The notes under the pieces are model-generated. The model searched no databases. It was not told the origin of the DNA and saw only the letters and a list, made by a program, of their open reading frames with translations. From a virus, in IMG/VR virus record IMGVR_UViG_3300046501_000053, positions 1-43,300 of that record: DNA of 43,300 nt; one strand, written 5' to 3'. A program made the translations under genes and the position numbers. Of the stretch, positions 3,777 to 32,408 are shown one piece after another. The number at the start of each line of letters is the position of its first letter. Position 1 is the first letter of the stretch.

Positions 3777-4362
3777 CACGCGGGTCGTGCATGAGGATTT
3801 GTGTGGCCAGTGCCAGCCACCAGGGTTCGGTGATTCTGGCTTCCAACTGCTTGCGCAGCACCTCCTTGTCGATTGCAACGAAAAAGTTTGCCAGGTCGCA
3901 CTTGAGGTAGAAGATCGGTTTCGACCAGTTCTCGCTGGCGCTGCGGATCTTTGACTCCAGCCGCGTGGCGGCATACAACGTGCCGCGCCCTGGAATGCAT
4001 GCGCAACTGTCCGCTATGAAGCTGGCGTAGAAGCGCGGGGCCACATGGTTGTACATGAGGTGGTGGACGACGCGGTCCCGAAAGGCTGCCGCCCAAACTT
4101 CGCGGGCTTTCGGCCTGGTGACAACGAAACAAATGGAACGGCCTGGCCGGTAAGTGCCGGCAATCAGGTCGTCGTGTAGCTCCAGCAAGTTGATCTCCAT
4201 GTCCTTCTCGAACAGCCGAGCACTTGCGGTGTTCCGCTTGTTGCGTCGGCAGTCGTAGTAAGCCTGGACGAGATCCTCGAACTGGAAGGGGGCAACACTT
4301 AAATCTGCGGACAGGGCGCGCGAGCCGCTCGTTGTTCTTGTCGTTGTTGTTGAGCCAGCCAT
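3777..4362 (-). pseudogene. Truncated DGR reverse transcriptase
   Basis: About 176 residues match the N-terminal half of DGR (Bordetella bRT-like) reverse transcriptases: FQFEDLVQAYYDCRRNKRN, FEKDMEINLLELHDDLIAG, AFRDRVVHHLMYNHVAPRF, IPGRGTLYAATRLESKI and motif A, YLKCDLANFFVAID, with the first catalytic Asp. Just after MHDPRE the frame runs into methyltransferase DNA, and no YxDD motif or thumb is found anywhere on this strand. Family members are normally 300-400 residues. The start is unclear: an in-frame ATG at 4362 and a TTG at 4368 lie inside the template repeat, and there is no good ATG after it. Target genes, Avd and TR all lie just upstream in the same direction. Confidence 0.85.
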
Positions 4363-4405
4363 CTTCAAAGTCCATGTTGTAGGCGTTGTTGGCGGAGCGC
4401 TGCGA
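4305..4405 (-). repeat. DGR template repeat (TR)
   Basis: This 101-bp non-coding copy matches the 3' ends of the two target genes. On the minus strand its centre is a run of AAC, ATG, GAC, GAA and AAG codon-like triplets with 28 adenines, flanked by invariant ends (TCGCAGCGCTCCGCC on one side and a GC-rich 26-base end on the other). Every difference from VR1 (10) and VR2 (14) falls on a template adenine, the signature of DGR mutagenic retrohoming. It sits between avd and the reverse transcriptase, the usual place. Confidence 0.95.
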
Positions 4406-4574
4406 CCTGTCGAGCTATCTACATCGCCAAACCGAAGGCAGTGCCGATCAGCTTGGAAACTGCGCGAGACCTACGCGGACGTTTTAGACCGGCGGTATCT
4501 GTTGTGCGCATGGCGGTGACCCAGAGGTCAGCGGCTCGACCAGATTTGGCGCACAGGCAAGAGGGCCTTGACCC
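4406..4574 (-). other. Leader between avd and TR, with an operator-like site
   Basis: This non-coding stretch between the avd stop and the TR probably forms the 5' part of the TR RNA, which in studied DGRs is needed for priming and RT binding. It contains an imperfect operator-like palindrome at 4485-4499 (ACCGGCGGTAT core) that matches the phage operator consensus AATACCGNCGGTATT at 11 of 14 specified bases. No convincing -35/-10 pair was found beside it. Confidence 0.5.
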
Positions 4575-13492: not shown

Positions 13493-13525
13493 TAGCTGTG
13501 CGTAGAAACGTGCGTAACACAGCTA
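13493..13525. other. Inverted repeat between convergent moron and cI
   Basis: An 8-bp perfect inverted repeat (TAGCTGTG / CACAGCTA) with a 17-base spacer lies between the stop of the secreted protein and the stop of cI. It could act as a weak bidirectional transcription barrier, but there is no T run on either side. Confidence 0.4.
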
Positions 13526-14308
13526 TAGCATGCCGCCGCGCCAAACAACGCGCCCAATGATGCGAACCTCGTTTATCTCCCCATCACGTAGCGTCTCATC
13601 GCCATAGCGAGCCTTATCTGGGTTGTCGCTGCGGATGATCCAACCTTCGAAATCAGACTTCACAAGGCGCTTCACGATCGTGCCCTTGGACTCGCTCTGC
13701 ATGGCAAATATCTGGCCGTCCTTCGGCTCGATCTTTGACTCATCTACCAGCAGCACGTCGCCGTCGTTGATGGTCGGTTCCATGCTGTTGCCGCTGGCAT
13801 AGATCACGTCCAGGTGCTTCTGGTTGAGGTTGTTAGCACGCAGCCATGAGGACTTAAATGCCATGACGCCGCGTATCTCTACGTGCGGGTTGTCATCACC
13901 GTCGCCGGTTGAGCCGCGCGCTGTAAGTTGCATTACACCTGTGTAGCCGGGCTCATCCATTAAATCAAAGCTACGCGCCGGGATGCGTCCATCAGTTGGC
14001 TGCTGCACGACCTTCCCAGGGAGCGCCTGAGACATTTTTTCTATCTGAGCAGCAAGCGTCGGACTAATTTCCGAAACTGGCACCCCGAGCGCTCTCGCAA
14101 ATACAACTGCCGCATTCACGCTCAGGGCGGTGCGACCGTTCATGAAGTGGCTGACGGCGCCTTGGGTAACGCCATCCCCCAAGTCAGCGGCAAGTTTTTC
14201 TTGGGTGAGGTTGAGCTCTCCGCGTTTAGCCTGGAACAGGGATTTAAGGCGGGCACTGTCTTGCAGCTGCCATTCGGATAACGGAAGCCGTCGCGAGTCT
14301 TTTTTCAT
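13523..14308 (-). CDS. cI: CI-type repressor (HTH plus S24 peptidase-like domain)
   Basis: 261 residues. The XRE helix-turn-helix spans roughly residues 34-62 (LTQEKLAADLGDGVTQGAVS, HFMNG). The C-terminal LexA/CI domain has Ser175 in ASGNSMEPTI and Lys213 in GTIVKRLV, the catalytic dyad. It would bind the five operators and maintain lysogeny. No Ala-Gly or Cys-Gly cleavage dipeptide is visible in the linker (residues 90-170), so RecA-stimulated self-cleavage is in doubt. The gene has no Shine-Dalgarno, and the predicted promoter places the mRNA start within a few bases of the ATG, as in lambda PRM. Confidence 0.9.
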   Translation of the reverse strand: MKKDSRRLPLSEWQLQDSARLKSLFQAKRGELNLTQEKLAADLGDGVTQGAVSHFMNGRTALSVNAAVVFARALGVPVSEISPTLAAQIEKMSQALPGKVVQQPTDGRIPARSFDLMDEPGYTGVMQLTARGSTGDGDDNPHVEIRGVMAFKSSWLRANNLNQKHLDVIYASGNSMEPTINDGDVLLVDESKIEPKDGQIFAMQSESKGTIVKRLVKSDFEGWIIRSDNPDKARYGDETLRDGEINEVRIIGRVVWRGGML

Positions 14309-15150: not shown

Positions 15151-15188
15151 ACATCGCTTGCAAATAACGTTTCAACATGGAGCTGATT

Positions 15189-15989
15189 ATGCATACGTCG
15201 AACACTGATGTACAGGCCCTGAATAATCCCGCGCCACGTTTTCAGCAATCGCAAAACGTGGCGCGGACAATGTCATCCAGAGAAATCGCCGATCTGGTCG
15301 AGGCCAGGCACAACGATGTCATCACCACTATCGCGCGTCTTTTTGCCAAAGGGCTTTTACGATCAGGTCGTAAAACTCGTCGTGAAGCCACCGGCGGACG
15401 CCCCATCGATGTCTACGACCTGACCGAGCGTGACACGCATTTGGTTGTGGCTGGTTACAGCGACGAGCACCGCGCGCGAGTTATCGACCGCTGGCAGGAT
15501 CTTGAAGAGTCCAACGCGAAGCCCTCCTTCGATGTTGCCAACCTGAACGACCCCAAAGTTCTGCTGGCTCTGCTGACCGATAACGTCCGTAAGGTCGTGC
15601 ACTTGGAGGCTGACAACACCGAACTCACGCAGGAGAACCACCTGCTGGAGCAGAAGTTGGTTGCTGATGCGCCGAAGGTCGATTTCTTCAACGCCGTCAT
15701 TACATCTACCAGCATCCATTCCGTCCGGGAGGTGGCCCAGTCCATCGGCACAGGACAAAACCGTCTGTTTGCGTTCATGCGCCAGCAGCGCTGGGTTGAC
15801 CGTCACAACACGCCATATCAGGGCCGGGTCGAATCGGGGCATCTGGTGGCTGAGCCGCATTCCTACAACTGCCCTGAAACCGGTGAGCGCAAGACGAAGT
15901 TCACCTGCAAGGTCACCGGCAAGGGCTTCACCAAGCTTCAGGCGCTGTGGTCCGGTCGAGACAAGGCGATCTTGGGCGGTGCCGCGTGA
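15189..15989 (+). CDS. Rha-family / KilAC antirepressor-like regulator
   Basis: 266 residues. The N-terminal Rha-type domain runs from about residue 25 to 110 (MSSREIADLVEARHNDVITT, GRPIDVYDLTERDTHLVVAG), with a central coiled coil (ADNTELTQENHLLEQKLV). The C-terminal KilAC-type domain begins near residue 150 (VDFFNAVITS, VAQSIGTGQNRLFAFMRQQR) and ends in VTGKGFTKLQALW. Proteins of this layout act as phage antirepressors or growth-interfering regulators. The start is the ATG at 15189 with GGAG eight bases upstream. It could induce the prophage by removing CI. Confidence 0.85.
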   Translation: MHTSNTDVQALNNPAPRFQQSQNVARTMSSREIADLVEARHNDVITTIARLFAKGLLRSGRKTRREATGGRPIDVYDLTERDTHLVVAGYSDEHRARVIDRWQDLEESNAKPSFDVANLNDPKVLLALLTDNVRKVVHLEADNTELTQENHLLEQKLVADAPKVDFFNAVITSTSIHSVREVAQSIGTGQNRLFAFMRQQRWVDRHNTPYQGRVESGHLVAEPHSYNCPETGERKTKFTCKVTGKGFTKLQALWSGRDKAILGGAA

Positions 15990-21508: not shown

Positions 21509-22069
21509 ATGGCATTGACCCCAAAGCAGGAGGCCTTCTGCCTGGCCTACCTGAAGACGGGTAACGCCAGCGAGGCTTACAGGCAGGCATACGCTGCCAA
21601 GGACATGAAGGCGGCGACGATTAACCGGAAGGCAAAGGATCTTCTGGATAACGGCAAGATCGCGGCAAGGCTTTCTGAGCTCAACCAATCGGCGGTCACG
21701 GACTCTGTGATGACTCGTCAGCGCGCCCTCGAGCGCCTCAGCCTGATTGCAGAGACTTCCATCACCGATATCCTTGAGTTCGATCAGCGCGAGATTGACG
21801 GGCCTGAAGGCCCTGTCAGCGAAACCATTTGGCGGATGAAGGACAGCGTCGAGATTCCGGAAGTGGCAGCGGCCACCATCAAGTCGGTGACCATGACCAA
21901 GTTCGGGCCGAAGATCGAGATGTACGACCGCCTGAGCGCGATCCAGCAGCTCGCCAGAATGCAAGGCTGGGAGTCGGCGCAGAAGCACGACCACACCAGC
22001 AGCGATGGCAGCATGAGCCCCAAAGGGAAGTCTCTGGACGACTTCTACGCCGGCGATGTACCAGCTTAA
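21509..22069 (+). CDS. terS: Terminase small subunit
   Basis: 186 residues of the Terminase_2 family. LTPKQEAFCLAYLKTGNASE and AYRQAYAAKDMKAATINRKA form the N-terminal helix-turn-helix that recognises phage DNA. SLIAETSITDILEFDQREID and the charged C-terminus follow. It is immediately upstream of and overlaps the large subunit. Confidence 0.9.
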   Translation: MALTPKQEAFCLAYLKTGNASEAYRQAYAAKDMKAATINRKAKDLLDNGKIAARLSELNQSAVTDSVMTRQRALERLSLIAETSITDILEFDQREIDGPEGPVSETIWRMKDSVEIPEVAAATIKSVTMTKFGPKIEMYDRLSAIQQLARMQGWESAQKHDHTSSDGSMSPKGKSLDDFYAGDVPA

Positions 22070-23399
22070 CCCGAGCCTTCGTGAGTTTTGGCGGATCAGG
22101 AAGCCGTACAAGCTTCTGAAGGGTGGGCGGTTCTCATCGAAGACCCAAGATGCGGGCGGCATGGCTGCCTTCCTGGCTCGCAACTACACGGTGAAGTTTC
22201 TCTGCATTCGCCAGTTCCAGAACCGCATCGCCGACTCGGTGTATACGGTCATCACGGAAAAGATCAATCAGGCCGGATGGTCGGATGAGTTTGATATCGG
22301 CGTCTCGTCGATCAAGCACCGCAAAACCGGTTCTGAGTTTCTGTTCTACGGCATTGCCCGCAACCTGAGCGACATCAAGGGTACAGAGGGTGTCGACATC
22401 TGCTGGATCGAGGAGGGAGAAGGTCTCACCGAAGATCAGTGGAAAGTCATCGACCCGACAATCCGTAAGCAGGGTTCGGAGATCTGGATTCTGTGGAACC
22501 CGGACCTGATGACCGACTTTGTCCAGGCCAAGCTTCCAAAGCTGCTGGGCGACGACTGCGTCATCAAGCACATCAACTACGCCGACAACCCGTTCCTGTC
22601 CGATACCGCGCGCTCCAAGGCTGAGCGTCTGAAAGAGGCCGACGAGGAGTCGTACAACCACATCTACCTGGGCCAGCCGCGCACCAACGACGATGCGGCG
22701 GTAATCAAGTTCTCCTGGGTGGAGGCGTGCGTCAACGCGCACCTGAAGCTGGGTATGAGCTTGTCCGGCGCCAAGGCTGTTGGTTATGACGTGGCGGACA
22801 GCGGTGACGACAGCAATGCCTGCGCGCTGTTTGACGGTGCGATCTGCTTTGACATGGATGACTGGAAGGCCGGTGAAGACGAGCTGAACGAGTCAGCCAT
22901 GCGGGCCTGGTCTCACGTCAAAGGCGGCCGGCTGATCTACGACAGCATCGGCAACGGTGCTCATGTGGGGTCCACCCTGAAGGCAGCACGCATTCATGGC
23001 GGGTACTTCAAGTTCAATGCCGCCGGCGCCATCGTCAATCCTGAAAAGGAATACGCGCCCAAGATCAAGAACAAGGACAAGTTCGAGAACCTGAAGGCCC
23101 AAGCCTGGCAGGACGTGGCCGACCGCATGCGAAACACGTTCAACGCGGTCACCAAGGGGCACAAGTTCAAGGCGTCCGACCTGATCAGCATTTCCGGCGA
23201 TCTGCGAAAGATCGAGCAACTCAAGCTAGAGCTTTCCACTCCACGCAAGCGCTACAGCAAGCGAGGGCTGGATATGGTTGAGACCAAGGATGAACTGGCC
23301 CGGCGCAGCGTTGCGTCGCCCAACTTGGCCGATGCCTTCGTGATGGGCGCATGTCCGCACCTGGTGGCTAACTCGAGACCAATCCGCGACCTCTTATAA
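22056..23399 (+). CDS. terL: Terminase large subunit (PBSX type)
   Basis: 447 residues. Walker A variant KGGRFSSKT at residues 22-30, Walker B GVDICWIEE near 112-120, and the nuclease-domain start AVGYDVADSGDDSNA near 241-255 with Asp245 and Asp248. It packages DNA into the prohead by ATP hydrolysis and cuts it. Length and order are normal for the family. It overlaps the small-subunit gene by 14 bases. Confidence 0.93.
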   Translation: MYQLNPSLREFWRIRKPYKLLKGGRFSSKTQDAGGMAAFLARNYTVKFLCIRQFQNRIADSVYTVITEKINQAGWSDEFDIGVSSIKHRKTGSEFLFYGIARNLSDIKGTEGVDICWIEEGEGLTEDQWKVIDPTIRKQGSEIWILWNPDLMTDFVQAKLPKLLGDDCVIKHINYADNPFLSDTARSKAERLKEADEESYNHIYLGQPRTNDDAAVIKFSWVEACVNAHLKLGMSLSGAKAVGYDVADSGDDSNACALFDGAICFDMDDWKAGEDELNESAMRAWSHVKGGRLIYDSIGNGAHVGSTLKAARIHGGYFKFNAAGAIVNPEKEYAPKIKNKDKFENLKAQAWQDVADRMRNTFNAVTKGHKFKASDLISISGDLRKIEQLKLELSTPRKRYSKRGLDMVETKDELARRSVASPNLADAFVMGACPHLVANSRPIRDLL

Positions 23400-23415: not shown

Positions 23416-25281
23416 ATGAGCAAGAAGGGCTTAGTGCCAGCAGACAAAAAGCTGGGCAAAGCCCTTGTGCGGGCCGCTCAGAAGTACGAGGCGCAGATCA
23501 AGTCGTCAAGTGATGGCCTGGTGAATGTCGTGTCCGGCCTGGGCACGCAGAAGGCCAAGCGGTCCCACAACCAGTTCCAATACGGGTTCCTGAACGACTT
23601 CCAGCAGTTGGATGCTGCGTATCAAACCAGTTGGCTTGCCCGAGCGATCGTGGACTACCCAGCCGAGGACATGACCCGCGAGTGGCGCACCCTCAAGTGC
23701 GACGACGCGGACGTGATCCGCGCCGAGGAAGACCGCCTGCAACTGCCGGCCATGGTCAGCGAGGCAACCAGCTGGGCCCGGCTGTACGGTGGCGCCGGCA
23801 TCCTCATGCTGACCAACCAGGACCTGACAAAGCCGCTCAAGCCGGAGAAGATCAAGAAGGGCGACCTCTACCGTCTGCTGGTCATCGACCGCTTCGACAT
23901 GACGGCGATGGACCTGAACCAGACCAACATCCTTGCCGCGAACTACCTGCAGCCTGAGTTCTACACGATCGCCGCCGGCGCCCAGCAGATCCACTGGACG
24001 CACTTCGCGCGGTTCGCTGGTGCCAAGTTGCCACGTCGCCAGCGCGCGCAGACGCAGGGCTGGGGCGACTCAGAGCTGCGCAAGTGCCTCGACGACGTAA
24101 TGGACATCGTAGCCAGCAAGGACGGCATCGCCGAGCTGATGCAGGAAGCGAACGTCGACATCATCAAACGCGAAGGCCTCTCGGATGAGCTGGCAAGCGA
24201 TCAGGACGACGCCATCACGGCGCGTTACGCCCTGTTCAGCATGATGAAGTCGTCGATCAACCTGGCGCTGCTTGATGGTGACGAGACCTACGACCGCAAG
24301 ACCCTGGACCTGTCCGGGGTGGCGCCGGTGCTTGATCTGCTGATGACCTGGATCGCTGGTGCCGCTGGTATCCCGGTGACGCGCCTGTTCGGCGAGTCTG
24401 CCAAGGGCCTGGGCAACGATGGACAGGGTGACGACACCAACTACTACAACCACCTCTCATCGAAGCGACTGACGCAGATCGACCCCGGCCTGCGCCAACT
24501 CGACGAAGTGATGGTGCGGTCGGCGACCGGTCGCTGGCTGGACGACTTCAACTACGTCTGGAACCCGTACAAGCAGCCTGATGCAGTGCAGATCGCCACG
24601 GCCAACAAAGCCAAGGCTGAAACCGACCTGCTCTACAAGGACGGCGGAGTCGTCACCACCAGCCAAATCCAGCGCCGCCTGCAGGCCGAAGAGCTCTACC
24701 AGTTCGACGACGAGAAGATCGCCGCGCTGGAGGCTGATGAGGACCTGACGATGTTCAACGATCCGCCGGATGACGACGACACTGGCGACAACAGGAAACC
24801 ATCATCTGACGCCGCTCCAGCACCGCTCTATGTGTTTAGGCCAGTACTGAACGCTGACGAGCTGATCAGCTGGGCCAAGTCGCAAGGCTTCACGCAGACC
24901 CTGCCAGAAGATGATCTGCATGTGACCGTGGCGTTCAGCAAGTCGCCTGTTGATTGGATGAAGGCCGGGGAGGCGTATAGCTCGCGTGATGATGGCGGTG
25001 TGACTGTTCGCCCTGGTGGCCCTCGCATGATTGAGCAGTTCGGCGAGGGCGCCGTCGTTCTGGCGTTCAACAGTTCTGACTTGTCGTGGCGCCACATGTC
25101 GCTGCGGGAGATCGGTGCTTCGTGGGATTACCCTGAATATCAGCCGCACATAACCATCACCTACAACTCGGGCGATGTGGATGTGAGCAAGGTCGAGCCA
25201 TACCGTGGACAGATCGTGCTCGGGGCCGAGGTGTTCAAGCCGATCAAGCAGAACTGGAAGGCCGATGTCAGCGAGGAGTAA
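23416..25281 (+). CDS. Portal protein fused to an Acb1-like 2H domain
   Basis: 621 residues. The first part of about 450 residues is a DUF1073 portal (FQQLDAAYQTSWLARAIVDY, PAEDMTREWR, WARLYGGAGILML, FGESAKGLGNDGQGD). After an acidic linker (DDDDTGDN) a second domain starts near residue 469 and carries two His-x-Thr motifs, LHVTVAF (His502, Thr504) and PHITITY (His578, Thr580). That is the 2H-phosphoesterase signature of the anti-CBASS nuclease Acb1, which cleaves cyclic oligonucleotide signals. The portal forms the DNA entry ring; the extra domain may disarm CBASS. Activity is inferred, not shown. Confidence 0.85.
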   Translation: MSKKGLVPADKKLGKALVRAAQKYEAQIKSSSDGLVNVVSGLGTQKAKRSHNQFQYGFLNDFQQLDAAYQTSWLARAIVDYPAEDMTREWRTLKCDDADVIRAEEDRLQLPAMVSEATSWARLYGGAGILMLTNQDLTKPLKPEKIKKGDLYRLLVIDRFDMTAMDLNQTNILAANYLQPEFYTIAAGAQQIHWTHFARFAGAKLPRRQRAQTQGWGDSELRKCLDDVMDIVASKDGIAELMQEANVDIIKREGLSDELASDQDDAITARYALFSMMKSSINLALLDGDETYDRKTLDLSGVAPVLDLLMTWIAGAAGIPVTRLFGESAKGLGNDGQGDDTNYYNHLSSKRLTQIDPGLRQLDEVMVRSATGRWLDDFNYVWNPYKQPDAVQIATANKAKAETDLLYKDGGVVTTSQIQRRLQAEELYQFDDEKIAALEADEDLTMFNDPPDDDDTGDNRKPSSDAAPAPLYVFRPVLNADELISWAKSQGFTQTLPEDDLHVTVAFSKSPVDWMKAGEAYSSRDDGGVTVRPGGPRMIEQFGEGAVVLAFNSSDLSWRHMSLREIGASWDYPEYQPHITITYNSGDVDVSKVEPYRGQIVLGAEVFKPIKQNWKADVSEE

Positions 25282-25284
25282 TCC

Positions 25285-26100
25285 ATGGACATGATCGGCA
25301 TCCAGTACAACGCTAAGCTGCAGCGGCTGGTGAAGCAGGTCAAGGCGTCGATCAGCAAGGAGATCATGCCTCTGGTTCGCCAGCTGGCGCCGGAGTACAC
25401 CCAGGACGCGGTGGTCACGACTGATGCCTGGTCTGACCTGATCCTCAACGCCATATCCACACTGGTGAGCCGATGGTCATCGCCGACGGTTCAGGCCGCC
25501 GGCGCACGAATCGCCGGAGAGTTCGTCCAGTCGTCGCTCAAGAAGTCGGAGCGCGACCTGAAGAAGTCTGCCGGGATCGACGTGTACAGCGGCAACACCG
25601 CGCTGCAGGACTACCTGAAGGCCTCGGCCCAGCAGAACGCCCAGCTGATCAAATCCATCCCCGCCAAGTACCTGGAAGAGGTACAGACGCTGGTGATGGC
25701 GAACATGCGTTCCGGCATGCGGCCTGGCTTCATCGAGAAGGCGTTGCAGGAGCAGTTCGGTGTGACTCAGCGCCGAGCCAAGATGATCGCCCGCGACCAG
25801 ACATCGAAGATCAACGGTGAGCTGGCCGAGAAGCAGCAGAAGGGCGCCGGCTTTGAGTACTTCCAGTGGATTGACTCCGACGACAGCCGTGTCCGGCATC
25901 GCCACTCGGAGATCGCCAACAAGGTCACCGCCTACGGCAAAGGGATCTACCGCTGGGACGACCTGCCGTTGAGTTCTGACGGCGTTCCGATCAAGCCGGG
26001 CTCCGACTATCAGTGCCGATGCATCGCGCGCCCAGTGAGCGCCCGCGAGGTTAAGGCCAACCAAGACGCAGGCCGCACAGCGCCGGGCGTCCACCGCTAA
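25285..26100 (+). CDS. Head morphogenesis protein (Mu gpF / SPP1 gp7-like)
   Basis: 271 residues. The C-terminal half has RRAKMIARDQTSKINGELAE and WIDSDDSRVRHRHSEIANKV, then GSDYQCRCIARPV, the order of the phage Mu gpF-like minor head family. These proteins sit near the portal and help prohead assembly or DNA ejection. It follows the portal by three bases. Confidence 0.88.
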   Translation: MDMIGIQYNAKLQRLVKQVKASISKEIMPLVRQLAPEYTQDAVVTTDAWSDLILNAISTLVSRWSSPTVQAAGARIAGEFVQSSLKKSERDLKKSAGIDVYSGNTALQDYLKASAQQNAQLIKSIPAKYLEEVQTLVMANMRSGMRPGFIEKALQEQFGVTQRRAKMIARDQTSKINGELAEKQQKGAGFEYFQWIDSDDSRVRHRHSEIANKVTAYGKGIYRWDDLPLSSDGVPIKPGSDYQCRCIARPVSAREVKANQDAGRTAPGVHR

Positions 26101-26125: not shown

Positions 26126-27286
26126 ATGAAGTGCACGGTTTTCGACCGGGCTGGGTATCGCATCACCCAGCGAGAGTACACCGACGAGGGGTTCCTCAGG
26201 GTTCCGGGCCGAGTGGCCCGCACCGGGATTCAGGAATACCTGGCCCGAGAGCTTGGCCTCGATGGCGACCCAATGCGGGTTGTCCGCGTGTACAGGCCAG
26301 AGGACGAGGTGTTCAACGACGCTTCACTGAGCACGTACGACGGCGCGACGGTCACAAACGACCATCCGAAAGACCTGGTGACGGCCAAGAACTACAAGGC
26401 CGTGGCTGTCGGGGAAGTGCGCGGCGCAGGGCGTCGAGACGGAGAGTTCGTCGTCTGCGATCTGATCATCAAAGATCAGAAGACCATCGATGACATCAAC
26501 TCAGGCAAGTGCGAGCTCTCTGCGGGCTACACCGCTGAATACGTCCACACCCCCGGCCTCGTCATCGACGGGCAGGAATGCGAGTACACCCAGCGCAACA
26601 TCATCATCAACCACCAAGCGGTGGTTACCAGAGCAAGAGCGGGCGGCAATGCTCGCGTCTTCGACCACAACCCAGGAGGCAACACAATGCCTGTACTTAT
26701 CACCACCGATAGCGGGCGCAGCGTTGATGTTGCTGATCCTGCGAACGCCCAAGTGGTCGCCGACTCGTTCGACCGATTGCTGAAGCGTGCCACTGATGCG
26801 GAAACCAAGGCTGATAAGGCCCAGGCGACCGCTGACAAGGCTGCCGAATACCTGGCCGAAGCTCGCAAGGCTTCGAGCGACGAGTCAATCAATGCCCGCG
26901 TCGTCCTGATCGGCAACACACAGGCCCTGGCCCGCAAGGTCGCCGGCGACGGCTTTACCTGCGACAGCCTCGACGTGATCGAGATCAAGCGCGCCGCCCT
27001 GGCCGTGGCCCTGCCGAAGCGTGACTGGTCGGACAAGTCCGCCGGCTACGTTGAGGCCGCCTTCGACGCTGAGTCCGACAAGGATGAGGACGAAGACGAC
27101 GACATGGACGACAGCGGCAAAAAAAAGGTCAAGGCGCCCACCGGTGACACCGCCGCGCTCTTCGCCCAGTTCGTACAGCTCGCCAAGGACGGCGCAACAC
27201 CGGCCGTTACCGCTGACGCAGCACCGACCCCATACCAGGCGCACAAGAAAAGCTTGTCTGGCGCCCACAAACAGAAAGGAGCCTAA
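26126..27286 (+). CDS. DUF2213 prohead protease with scaffold-like C-terminus
   Basis: 386 residues. The N-terminal DUF2213 part includes ARELGLDGDPMRVVRVYRPE, ATVTNDHP, CELSAGYTAEYVHTPG and QRNIIINHQAVVTRARAGGN, the His/Ser-type pattern of prohead proteases. From residue 215 it becomes a charged coiled coil (RATDAETKADKAQATADKAA) and an acidic stretch (DEDEDDDMDDSGKKK), typical of a scaffold. Protease and scaffold are one polypeptide, so the scaffold is probably self-removed. Confidence 0.85.
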   Translation: MKCTVFDRAGYRITQREYTDEGFLRVPGRVARTGIQEYLARELGLDGDPMRVVRVYRPEDEVFNDASLSTYDGATVTNDHPKDLVTAKNYKAVAVGEVRGAGRRDGEFVVCDLIIKDQKTIDDINSGKCELSAGYTAEYVHTPGLVIDGQECEYTQRNIIINHQAVVTRARAGGNARVFDHNPGGNTMPVLITTDSGRSVDVADPANAQVVADSFDRLLKRATDAETKADKAQATADKAAEYLAEARKASSDESINARVVLIGNTQALARKVAGDGFTCDSLDVIEIKRAALAVALPKRDWSDKSAGYVEAAFDAESDKDEDEDDDMDDSGKKKVKAPTGDTAALFAQFVQLAKDGATPAVTADAAPTPYQAHKKSLSGAHKQKGA

Positions 27287-31265: not shown

Positions 31266-32408
31266 GTGAGCTATCCAGCTACCAACATCATCCGGATTAA
31301 TGCCCGGATCAGCCCGGCCGGCCTGGGCAATGCGAACTTTGCCAGCGCCATGCTGTTCGTTCCGCAGCTTGAGCTGCCGGTGGGCTTCGCGCCGGACACG
31401 TACCGGACGTATTTCACACTGGTCGCACTGTCTGAAGACTTTGCCGACACCACCGAAACTTACAAGGCGGCCCAGCGTTGGCTTGGCGGCACTCCGGCTA
31501 CGCGACAGATTCAGGTTTGGGGCGCAGCAACGGCTGACGCTACCCGCGCCGCGACGCTCAACAAAGCCCGAAACATGCTCTGGTGGTACTGGACCATGTG
31601 GACGGCGCCAGTATTGGCCGTCAAGGCGGATGCTCTGGCGATCGCCCAGTGGTGCGAAGACAACACCAGCATGTTCATCGACAACCAGACCGGCGCCTCG
31701 GCCGCCGAGATTCGCGACCCTGCGGATACCGATGACATCGCCACCCAGCTGACCTCGGCCGGTTTCCGTCACGCGTTCACGCCGACGCACGCCACCGACG
31801 CTTATTCTGGATCGGCATTGGCCAAGCACTACGCGGCAGTGAACTACAGCGCCGACCGTTCGACCATTACCGGTGAGTTCAAGAAATCGCCTGGCGTTGT
31901 CGGTGAGTCGCTGTCCGGAACAGCCTACACCGCCATGCAGAGCGACAAGAAAAAGGCGGTCTTCTACACGGTGGTCGACAACCAGGGCTCTACCGACTCC
32001 GGTCGCTGGCTCAATACCCTGACGCACAGTACCTATGGCGAGTTCATTGACGATGTGGTCAACCTCGACGCGTGCGTCAACTACCTGACGACCGCGCTCT
32101 ACAACGCAGTGGCCAACCAGACTACCAAGCTTGCCCAGACCCCGGTCGGCCAGGCCGTGCTGATCGGCGCCGCCCGGGCGACAATGCAGCAGTTCATCAA
32201 CAACGGCTATCTAGGGCCGCGCAACTACATCGACCCGGACGACGGGCTTGAGAAATACACCATCGGTTTCGAGATCCTGACCAAGCCCGAGGACATCCTC
32301 GATTTGTCGGATGCCGACCGTAACGCCCGCAAGTCCGCACCACTTCGCATTCGCCTGTTCCGCGCCGGCGCAATCCACATCGTTGATGTTGACCTCGACG
32401 TTTATTGA
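31266..32408 (+). CDS. Tail sheath-like protein (DUF3383)
   Basis: 380 residues from a GTG. FASAMLFVPQLELPVGFAPD, YKAAQRWLGGTPATRQIQVW and GFRHAFTPTHATDAYSGSAL are typical of DUF3383, a contractile sheath type. The C-terminal RKSAPLRIRLFRAGAIHIVD closes the family order. It marks the virus as a contractile-tailed phage. Confidence 0.87.
   Translation: MSYPATNIIRINARISPAGLGNANFASAMLFVPQLELPVGFAPDTYRTYFTLVALSEDFADTTETYKAAQRWLGGTPATRQIQVWGAATADATRAATLNKARNMLWWYWTMWTAPVLAVKADALAIAQWCEDNTSMFIDNQTGASAAEIRDPADTDDIATQLTSAGFRHAFTPTHATDAYSGSALAKHYAAVNYSADRSTITGEFKKSPGVVGESLSGTAYTAMQSDKKKAVFYTVVDNQGSTDSGRWLNTLTHSTYGEFIDDVVNLDACVNYLTTALYNAVANQTTKLAQTPVGQAVLIGAARATMQQFINNGYLGPRNYIDPDDGLEKYTIGFEILTKPEDILDLSDADRNARKSAPLRIRLFRAGAIHIVDVDLDVY

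Follow-up and report, generated by a model that had tools for sequence, protein, structure and literature searches.

The window, that is, the whole 43,300-nt stretch of DNA to which the gene and domain coordinates refer, encodes a 621-aa portal–Acb1 fusion protein in an intact open reading frame (23416–25281, + strand). The fusion gene belongs to a closely spaced row of genes on one strand, in the order terminase, portal–Acb1, MuF, DUF2213, cement and major capsid. The terminase small subunit (21509–22069, +; PF03592) is the first head-operon gene listed, and the large subunit (22056–23399, +; PF04466) stops 16 bp short of the portal gene. Downstream, a MuF-like head morphogenesis protein (25285–26100, +; PF04233) starts 3 bp after the stop of the fusion, followed by a DUF2213 protein (26126–27286, +; PF09979, phrog_530), described by PHROG and in the Pam3 annotation as a head maturation protease/scaffold. 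Since the genes are tightly spaced and no sigma-70-like promoter was seen within the head-gene stretch, the fusion is regarded as a head-operon protein, and the gene order, taken alone, suggests that it is expressed late. The PHROG matches also included a CI-like repressor (13523–14308, −), an Ant anti-repressor (15177–15989, +) and a tail sheath (31266–32408, +); as judged from its sequence, the phage is temperate and contractile-tailed. The nearest named carrier of the fusion is a Pseudomonas prophage.

Within the fusion protein, Pfam assigned residues 64–404 (23605–24627, +) to the portal core family Phage_portal_3/DUF1073 (PF06381, E = 8.1e-92), and residues 470–616 (24823–25263, +) to the Acb1 family of 2H phosphoesterases (PF23474, E = 4.2e-44, 150.2 bits against a cut-off of 27), with weaker LigT and 2'-5' RNA ligase matches overlapping the position of the latter. 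The intervening residues 405–469 (24628–24822, +) comprise the portal C-terminal helices and an acidic linker (446–469, MFNDPPDDDDTGDNRKPSSDAAPA), as delimited by the junction alignment, the tails of relatives, and the low pLDDT of linker residues 444–465 in the full-length model. A preliminary description of this DNA had read the gene as a DUF1073 portal, an acidic linker and then a C-terminal domain, and the profiles bear out this order. PHROGs classified the whole protein as a portal (phrog_146 over residues 23–616) and its C-terminal part as 'RNA ligase' (phrog_755), a name that several T4-type 57B genes also bear in their records. The full-length model matched the Pam3 portal (8hds, Z 26.4) and the E217 portal (Z 23.1) over residues ~58–449, and Acb1 over residues 469–618. 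By profile, fold and place between the TerL and MuF genes, the portal part is a phage portal.

The C-terminal domain was modelled with AlphaFold from 38 related sequences, with alignment rows taken only from the window and contig loci, to a mean pLDDT of 89.9. The best structural match was the FBB1 Acb1–cGAMP structure 7t27 (Z 16.8, rmsd 2.1, 134 residues, 31% identity), followed by the apo Acb1 7t26 (Z 15.7) and BCSR5 Acb1 (Z 14.0 and 12.9), and E. coli LigT-type structures reached Z 11.1 or less. The nearest PDB sequences over the domain were the Pam3 portal 8hds (E = 1.3e-31) and FBB1 Acb1 7t26 (E = 3.5e-16); indeed, a PDB profile search with the domain returned these two and BCSR5 Acb1, all of them Acb1-domain proteins, and nothing beyond them. 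The earlier proposal of an Acb1-like 2H domain, together with the suggested comparison of its predicted structure with Acb1, was thus upheld, as the curated profile, the predicted fold, for which a crystal Acb1 is the closest structure, and the intact HxT/HxT tetrad all agree. We assign the domain firmly to the Acb1 family.

The two HxT motifs first noticed 76 residues apart are present at H502-V503-T504 (24919–24927, +) and H578-I579-T580 (25147–25155, +), corresponding to T4 H44/T46 and H113/T115, respectively. As evidence, the motif alone is weak, because the portal part of the fusion itself contains a third HxT (H193), and because two HxT motifs 60–90 residues apart arose by chance in 0.45% of whole-protein shuffles and in 0.06% when only the last 160 residues were shuffled. 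We thus rejected the spacing as proof of a 2H domain, and the Acb1 claim is carried by the family, structure and conservation evidence. Across 62 aligned Acb1 domains, the His and Thr of the first motif were found in all 62, while the second motif had its His in 59 and T or S in every one, and the catalytic residues belong to the invariant positions of the domain.

In the alignment including T4 57B, the T4 residues Y12, H44, T46, F107, H113, T115 and W147, named for stacking and catalysis by Hobbs et al. 2022 (PMC9117128), corresponded to Y472, H502, T504, Y572, H578, T580 and W614. According to the same paper, 3'3'-cGAMP and cAAA are substrates of T4 Acb1 as well as of nine further homologues. 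Three of the four base-stacking aromatics of T4 Acb1 (Y12, F107 and W147) therefore have counterparts here; T4 W74 was aligned to R532, within a poorly aligned stretch. The adenine N6 contact of T4 Acb1, E141, aligned with K608 (25237–25239, +). This column holds E in 37 of the 62 domains; those with K are the domains of this Pseudomonas clade plus a small number of others. Since the position varies across the Pfam Acb1 members, it is a feature of specificity rather than of membership, and the substrate range or base preference of the predicted enzyme may differ from that of T4 Acb1. Separately, the second catalytic His is replaced by Tyr (QPYIS/QPYIT) in L031 and L032 (domain at 4001–4429) and in L045, and these copies are possibly naturally inactive; L030, near-identical to L031 and L032, keeps the His.

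2H folds act on RNA 2',3'-cyclic ends, 2'-5' oligoadenylate and cyclic nucleotides. As such folds perform all these reactions, the domain might be a 2H enzyme for RNA ends, for 2'-5' oligoadenylate, or for a cyclic nucleotide that T4 Acb1 refuses, in line with the PHROG family name, with Lys608 in the place of T4 E141, and with the RNase role offered by Iyer et al. 2017 (PMC5512222). However, the model and the profile are much nearer to Acb1 than to LigT, Usb1 or 2'-5' PDEs, and the three base-stacking aromatics are conserved, which makes such a different substrate unlikely.

The portal part was the only query used to collect relatives of the fusion, which kept the Acb1 domain from biasing the sample. 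The domain was present in 6 of the 79 related portal ORFs and absent from 73, and among portals at least 87% identical it was found in 3 of 35. The domain-less relatives mostly end in an acidic tail (e.g. ...MFNDPVDDDDKVE, stop), after which there is either the MuF gene directly or an unrelated small ORF in the gap, such as L101:4191–4445 and L065:4200–4565; the portal–MuF gap appears to serve as an insertion site for optional genes. The portal cores of L049, a Pseudomonas morbosilactucae prophage carrying the domain, and of L066, a relative lacking it, are identical, and the Jedunaviruses, ~70% identical over the portal, also lack the domain, the MEW1 portal ending at 464 aa. On the tree, domain presence required nine changes, at least six of them forced by well-supported branches. 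No Acb1 was found elsewhere in 21 records of fusion-less relatives, which may be incomplete records. The portals of another branch without Acb1 (L102–L118) carry a conserved short C-terminal tail (DAFMSAYTALTRDGVSHESAMAVLMG-like) that may be a binding peptide.

Among close carriers, dN/dS was 0.03–0.10 in the domain, as low as in the portal, indicating strong purifying selection on the Acb1 domain. In addition, the dS values of domain and portal disagreed between pairs of close carriers, a mismatch that fits module exchange by recombination. The domain was also conserved above the portal in locus set A3, but this was set aside because those loci had been fetched with the domain, and the portal-fetched set and dN/dS were used as evidence instead. 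The existence of near-identical portals without the domain ruled out that it is essential to the portal and, together with the low dN/dS, argues that it is kept for a function while being dispensable for the portal. A structural or packaging role, with the enzyme activity irrelevant, would suit a domain that belongs to the portal chain in every member of this architecture; it is nevertheless most improbable, since the domain is missing from portals whose cores are up to 100% identical, its invariant residues include the catalytic ones, and natural relatives already resemble a phage stopped at the acidic tail. The junction also contains an in-frame ATG (M446, 24751) with GAGG 8 nt upstream, from which a free 176-aa Acb1 could be made beside the fusion. 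The same ATG and upstream bases occur in relatives without the domain, so this start did not evolve for the domain, and we give an internal start hardly any credence.

The domain is found on other head proteins as well. Among 51 Acb1-domain proteins, some of them from near-identical contigs, Pfam detected PF06381 in 39, Portal_Mu in two, an HK97-type Phage_portal in two, and an XkdF protease in three. Thus, L038:2582–5110 joins a Mu-type portal, Acb1 and an XkdF protease in one 843-aa chain; L016:3839–4876 and L045:3692–4834 combine Acb1 with an XkdF-type head protease, the latter also with a ChaB domain; and L046:2468–5149 consists of an HK97-type portal, Acb1 and a further C-terminal ~230 aa, for which there was no Pfam match. 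Two genes annotated as 'prohead protease', in phage DSS3P8 (gp129, L059:3492–3941) and phage ZHS_4 (L060:2116–2712), matched Acb1 and no Pfam protease family; in ZHS_4, this Acb1-like gene stands unfused between the terminase and portal genes. Support was weak in the tree that relates the domains to their fusion partners, and no count of separate fusion events is drawn from it. In 298 Pseudomonas genomes, five Acb1 domains scored above the cut-off, and every one lay in a long, portal-sized frame of 624–645 aa, a warning for annotation; matches of 20–25 bits in Pseudomonas and other genomes were below the cut-off and were excluded from the counts. Since the annotations of such genes read portal, 'RNA ligase' or 'prohead protease', anti-CBASS capacity is under-counted.

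The E217 portal ends in a C-terminal barrel that extends into the head (PMC10329688). As such portal C-termini point into the head, the domain is placed inside the capsid, not on the virion surface, and by analogy the linker and domain would follow the portal barrel, with 12 copies inside the capsid. The delivery initially envisaged for a fused copy, late in the cell or on the virion, thus stands for the location of the gene within the late head operon, but not for a surface position. In the Pam3 portal 8hds, the only solved portal found with an Acb1 domain, 442 of 621 residues were modelled, and the part aligned to our full-length model spans 34–430. The few modelled residues outside this range are too few for a 148-residue domain, unless large portions of the core are missing, and the domain in the mature Pam3 portal is either flexible or lost or cut off.

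This mature model without the domain, the inward direction of the portal C-terminus, the head protease/scaffold gene two genes downstream, and the fusion of Acb1 to XkdF-type head proteases would all agree with a virion-borne effector, freed by the head protease during maturation, kept loose in the head like T4 internal proteins, and ejected with the DNA for immediate protection of the incoming genome. T4 57B adjoins ipI, an internal virion protein, and packaging and injection are favoured by Iyer et al. 2017 and 2022 (PMC5512222, PMC9503650). However, the absent density is explicable by plain flexibility, cutting presumes a putative cleavage site, each virion would hold only 12 copies, and an uncut domain would be unable to leave with the DNA. 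We consider a virion-borne effector a serious alternative, but a clearly less likely one.

The reading we favour, and consider probable, is that the gene encodes a portal subunit carrying an in-frame Acb1-family 2H phosphoesterase as dispensable cargo, which would remove CBASS signals during head assembly. It builds on the observed domain identity, predicted fold, tetrad, head-operon place, presence/absence pattern and purifying selection. The portal–Acb1 protein would be made in the cytoplasm alongside the other head proteins, and the domain, on its flexible acidic linker, would linearise CBASS cyclic di- and trinucleotides. By analogy with T4 and FBB1 Acb1, the chemistry would be metal-free HxT/HxT catalysis with 2'-OH attack on the 3'-5' bond. 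Both unassembled portals and prohead portals would cleave the signals while head assembly is under way, and in the finished virion the 12 domain copies would hang inside the head. T4 Acb1 acts early (PMC11722364), so that a late-made fusion would be handicapped against an early-triggered CBASS. Since a prohead protease was reported to interact with a CBASS sensor and to set it off (PMC12409349), we place the main action in the cytoplasm at head assembly, and the signals would most likely be removed late in infection, at that stage.

A broader proposal is offered tentatively, as something possible rather than expected. Acb1 would be a swappable head-borne cargo module, grafted repeatedly in frame onto three portal families and head proteases, which destroys CBASS signals at the site of head assembly or via freed, ejected copies, and whose E141-to-Lys change shifts base preference in this clade. 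A free Acb1 is early and dispersed, whereas the action of a portal-tied copy would be late and local, or the copy would travel with the virion; this is relevant to the moment at which CBASS is triggered and to the timing of phage counter-defence. The existence of near-identical phages with and without the domain makes the question testable with natural pairs.

Fusions of 2H domains to MuF or portal proteins were described by Iyer, Burroughs and Aravind in 2017, with the suggestion that the fused domains degrade nucleotides of counter-invader systems (PMC5512222); a 2022 paper repeats the proposal, adding packaging and injection (PMC9503650). Since the 2017 work had already put forward both the fusions and their role against nucleotide signals, and since a portal in the PDB, that of Pam3, has the same domain, the architecture is not new. 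What is added here is that, on sequence comparison, the Acb1 domain is an optional cargo on the portal; neither this presence/absence pattern, nor the domain's occurrence on a protease and on portals of three families, nor the K608 change was found in the open-licence literature. The fusions of Iyer et al. likewise combine a 2H domain with a head protein and are predicted to counter nucleotide-activated immunity, but that prediction predates Acb1 and, in the excerpted text, is left between RNase and nucleotide degradation and comes without presence/absence data. The Burkholderia phage BCSR5 Acb1 (9q2g, 9q2y) has the second-closest fold, but is a 165-aa chain with ~18% identity to the fusion domain. 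The Pam3 cyanophage portal (8hds, 621 aa) has the same architecture and length, with Acb1 at 471–618, and a similar gene order (terminase–portal–minor capsid–scaffold–cement–capsid), whereas its domain shares 40% identity with ours, has HxS as its second motif, and is unmodelled in 8hds. Finally, phage T4/FBB1 Acb1 (gp57B; 7t26, 7t27) shares the 2H fold, the HxT/HxT tetrad and the domain length with the fusion domain, in which Tyr12, Phe107 and Trp147 have counterparts. T4 Acb1 is, however, a free 152-aa enzyme that acts early, whereas the fusion is portal-attached and, by gene order, probably late, with K608 in place of E141 and additional conserved WAKSQGF and PVDW motifs.
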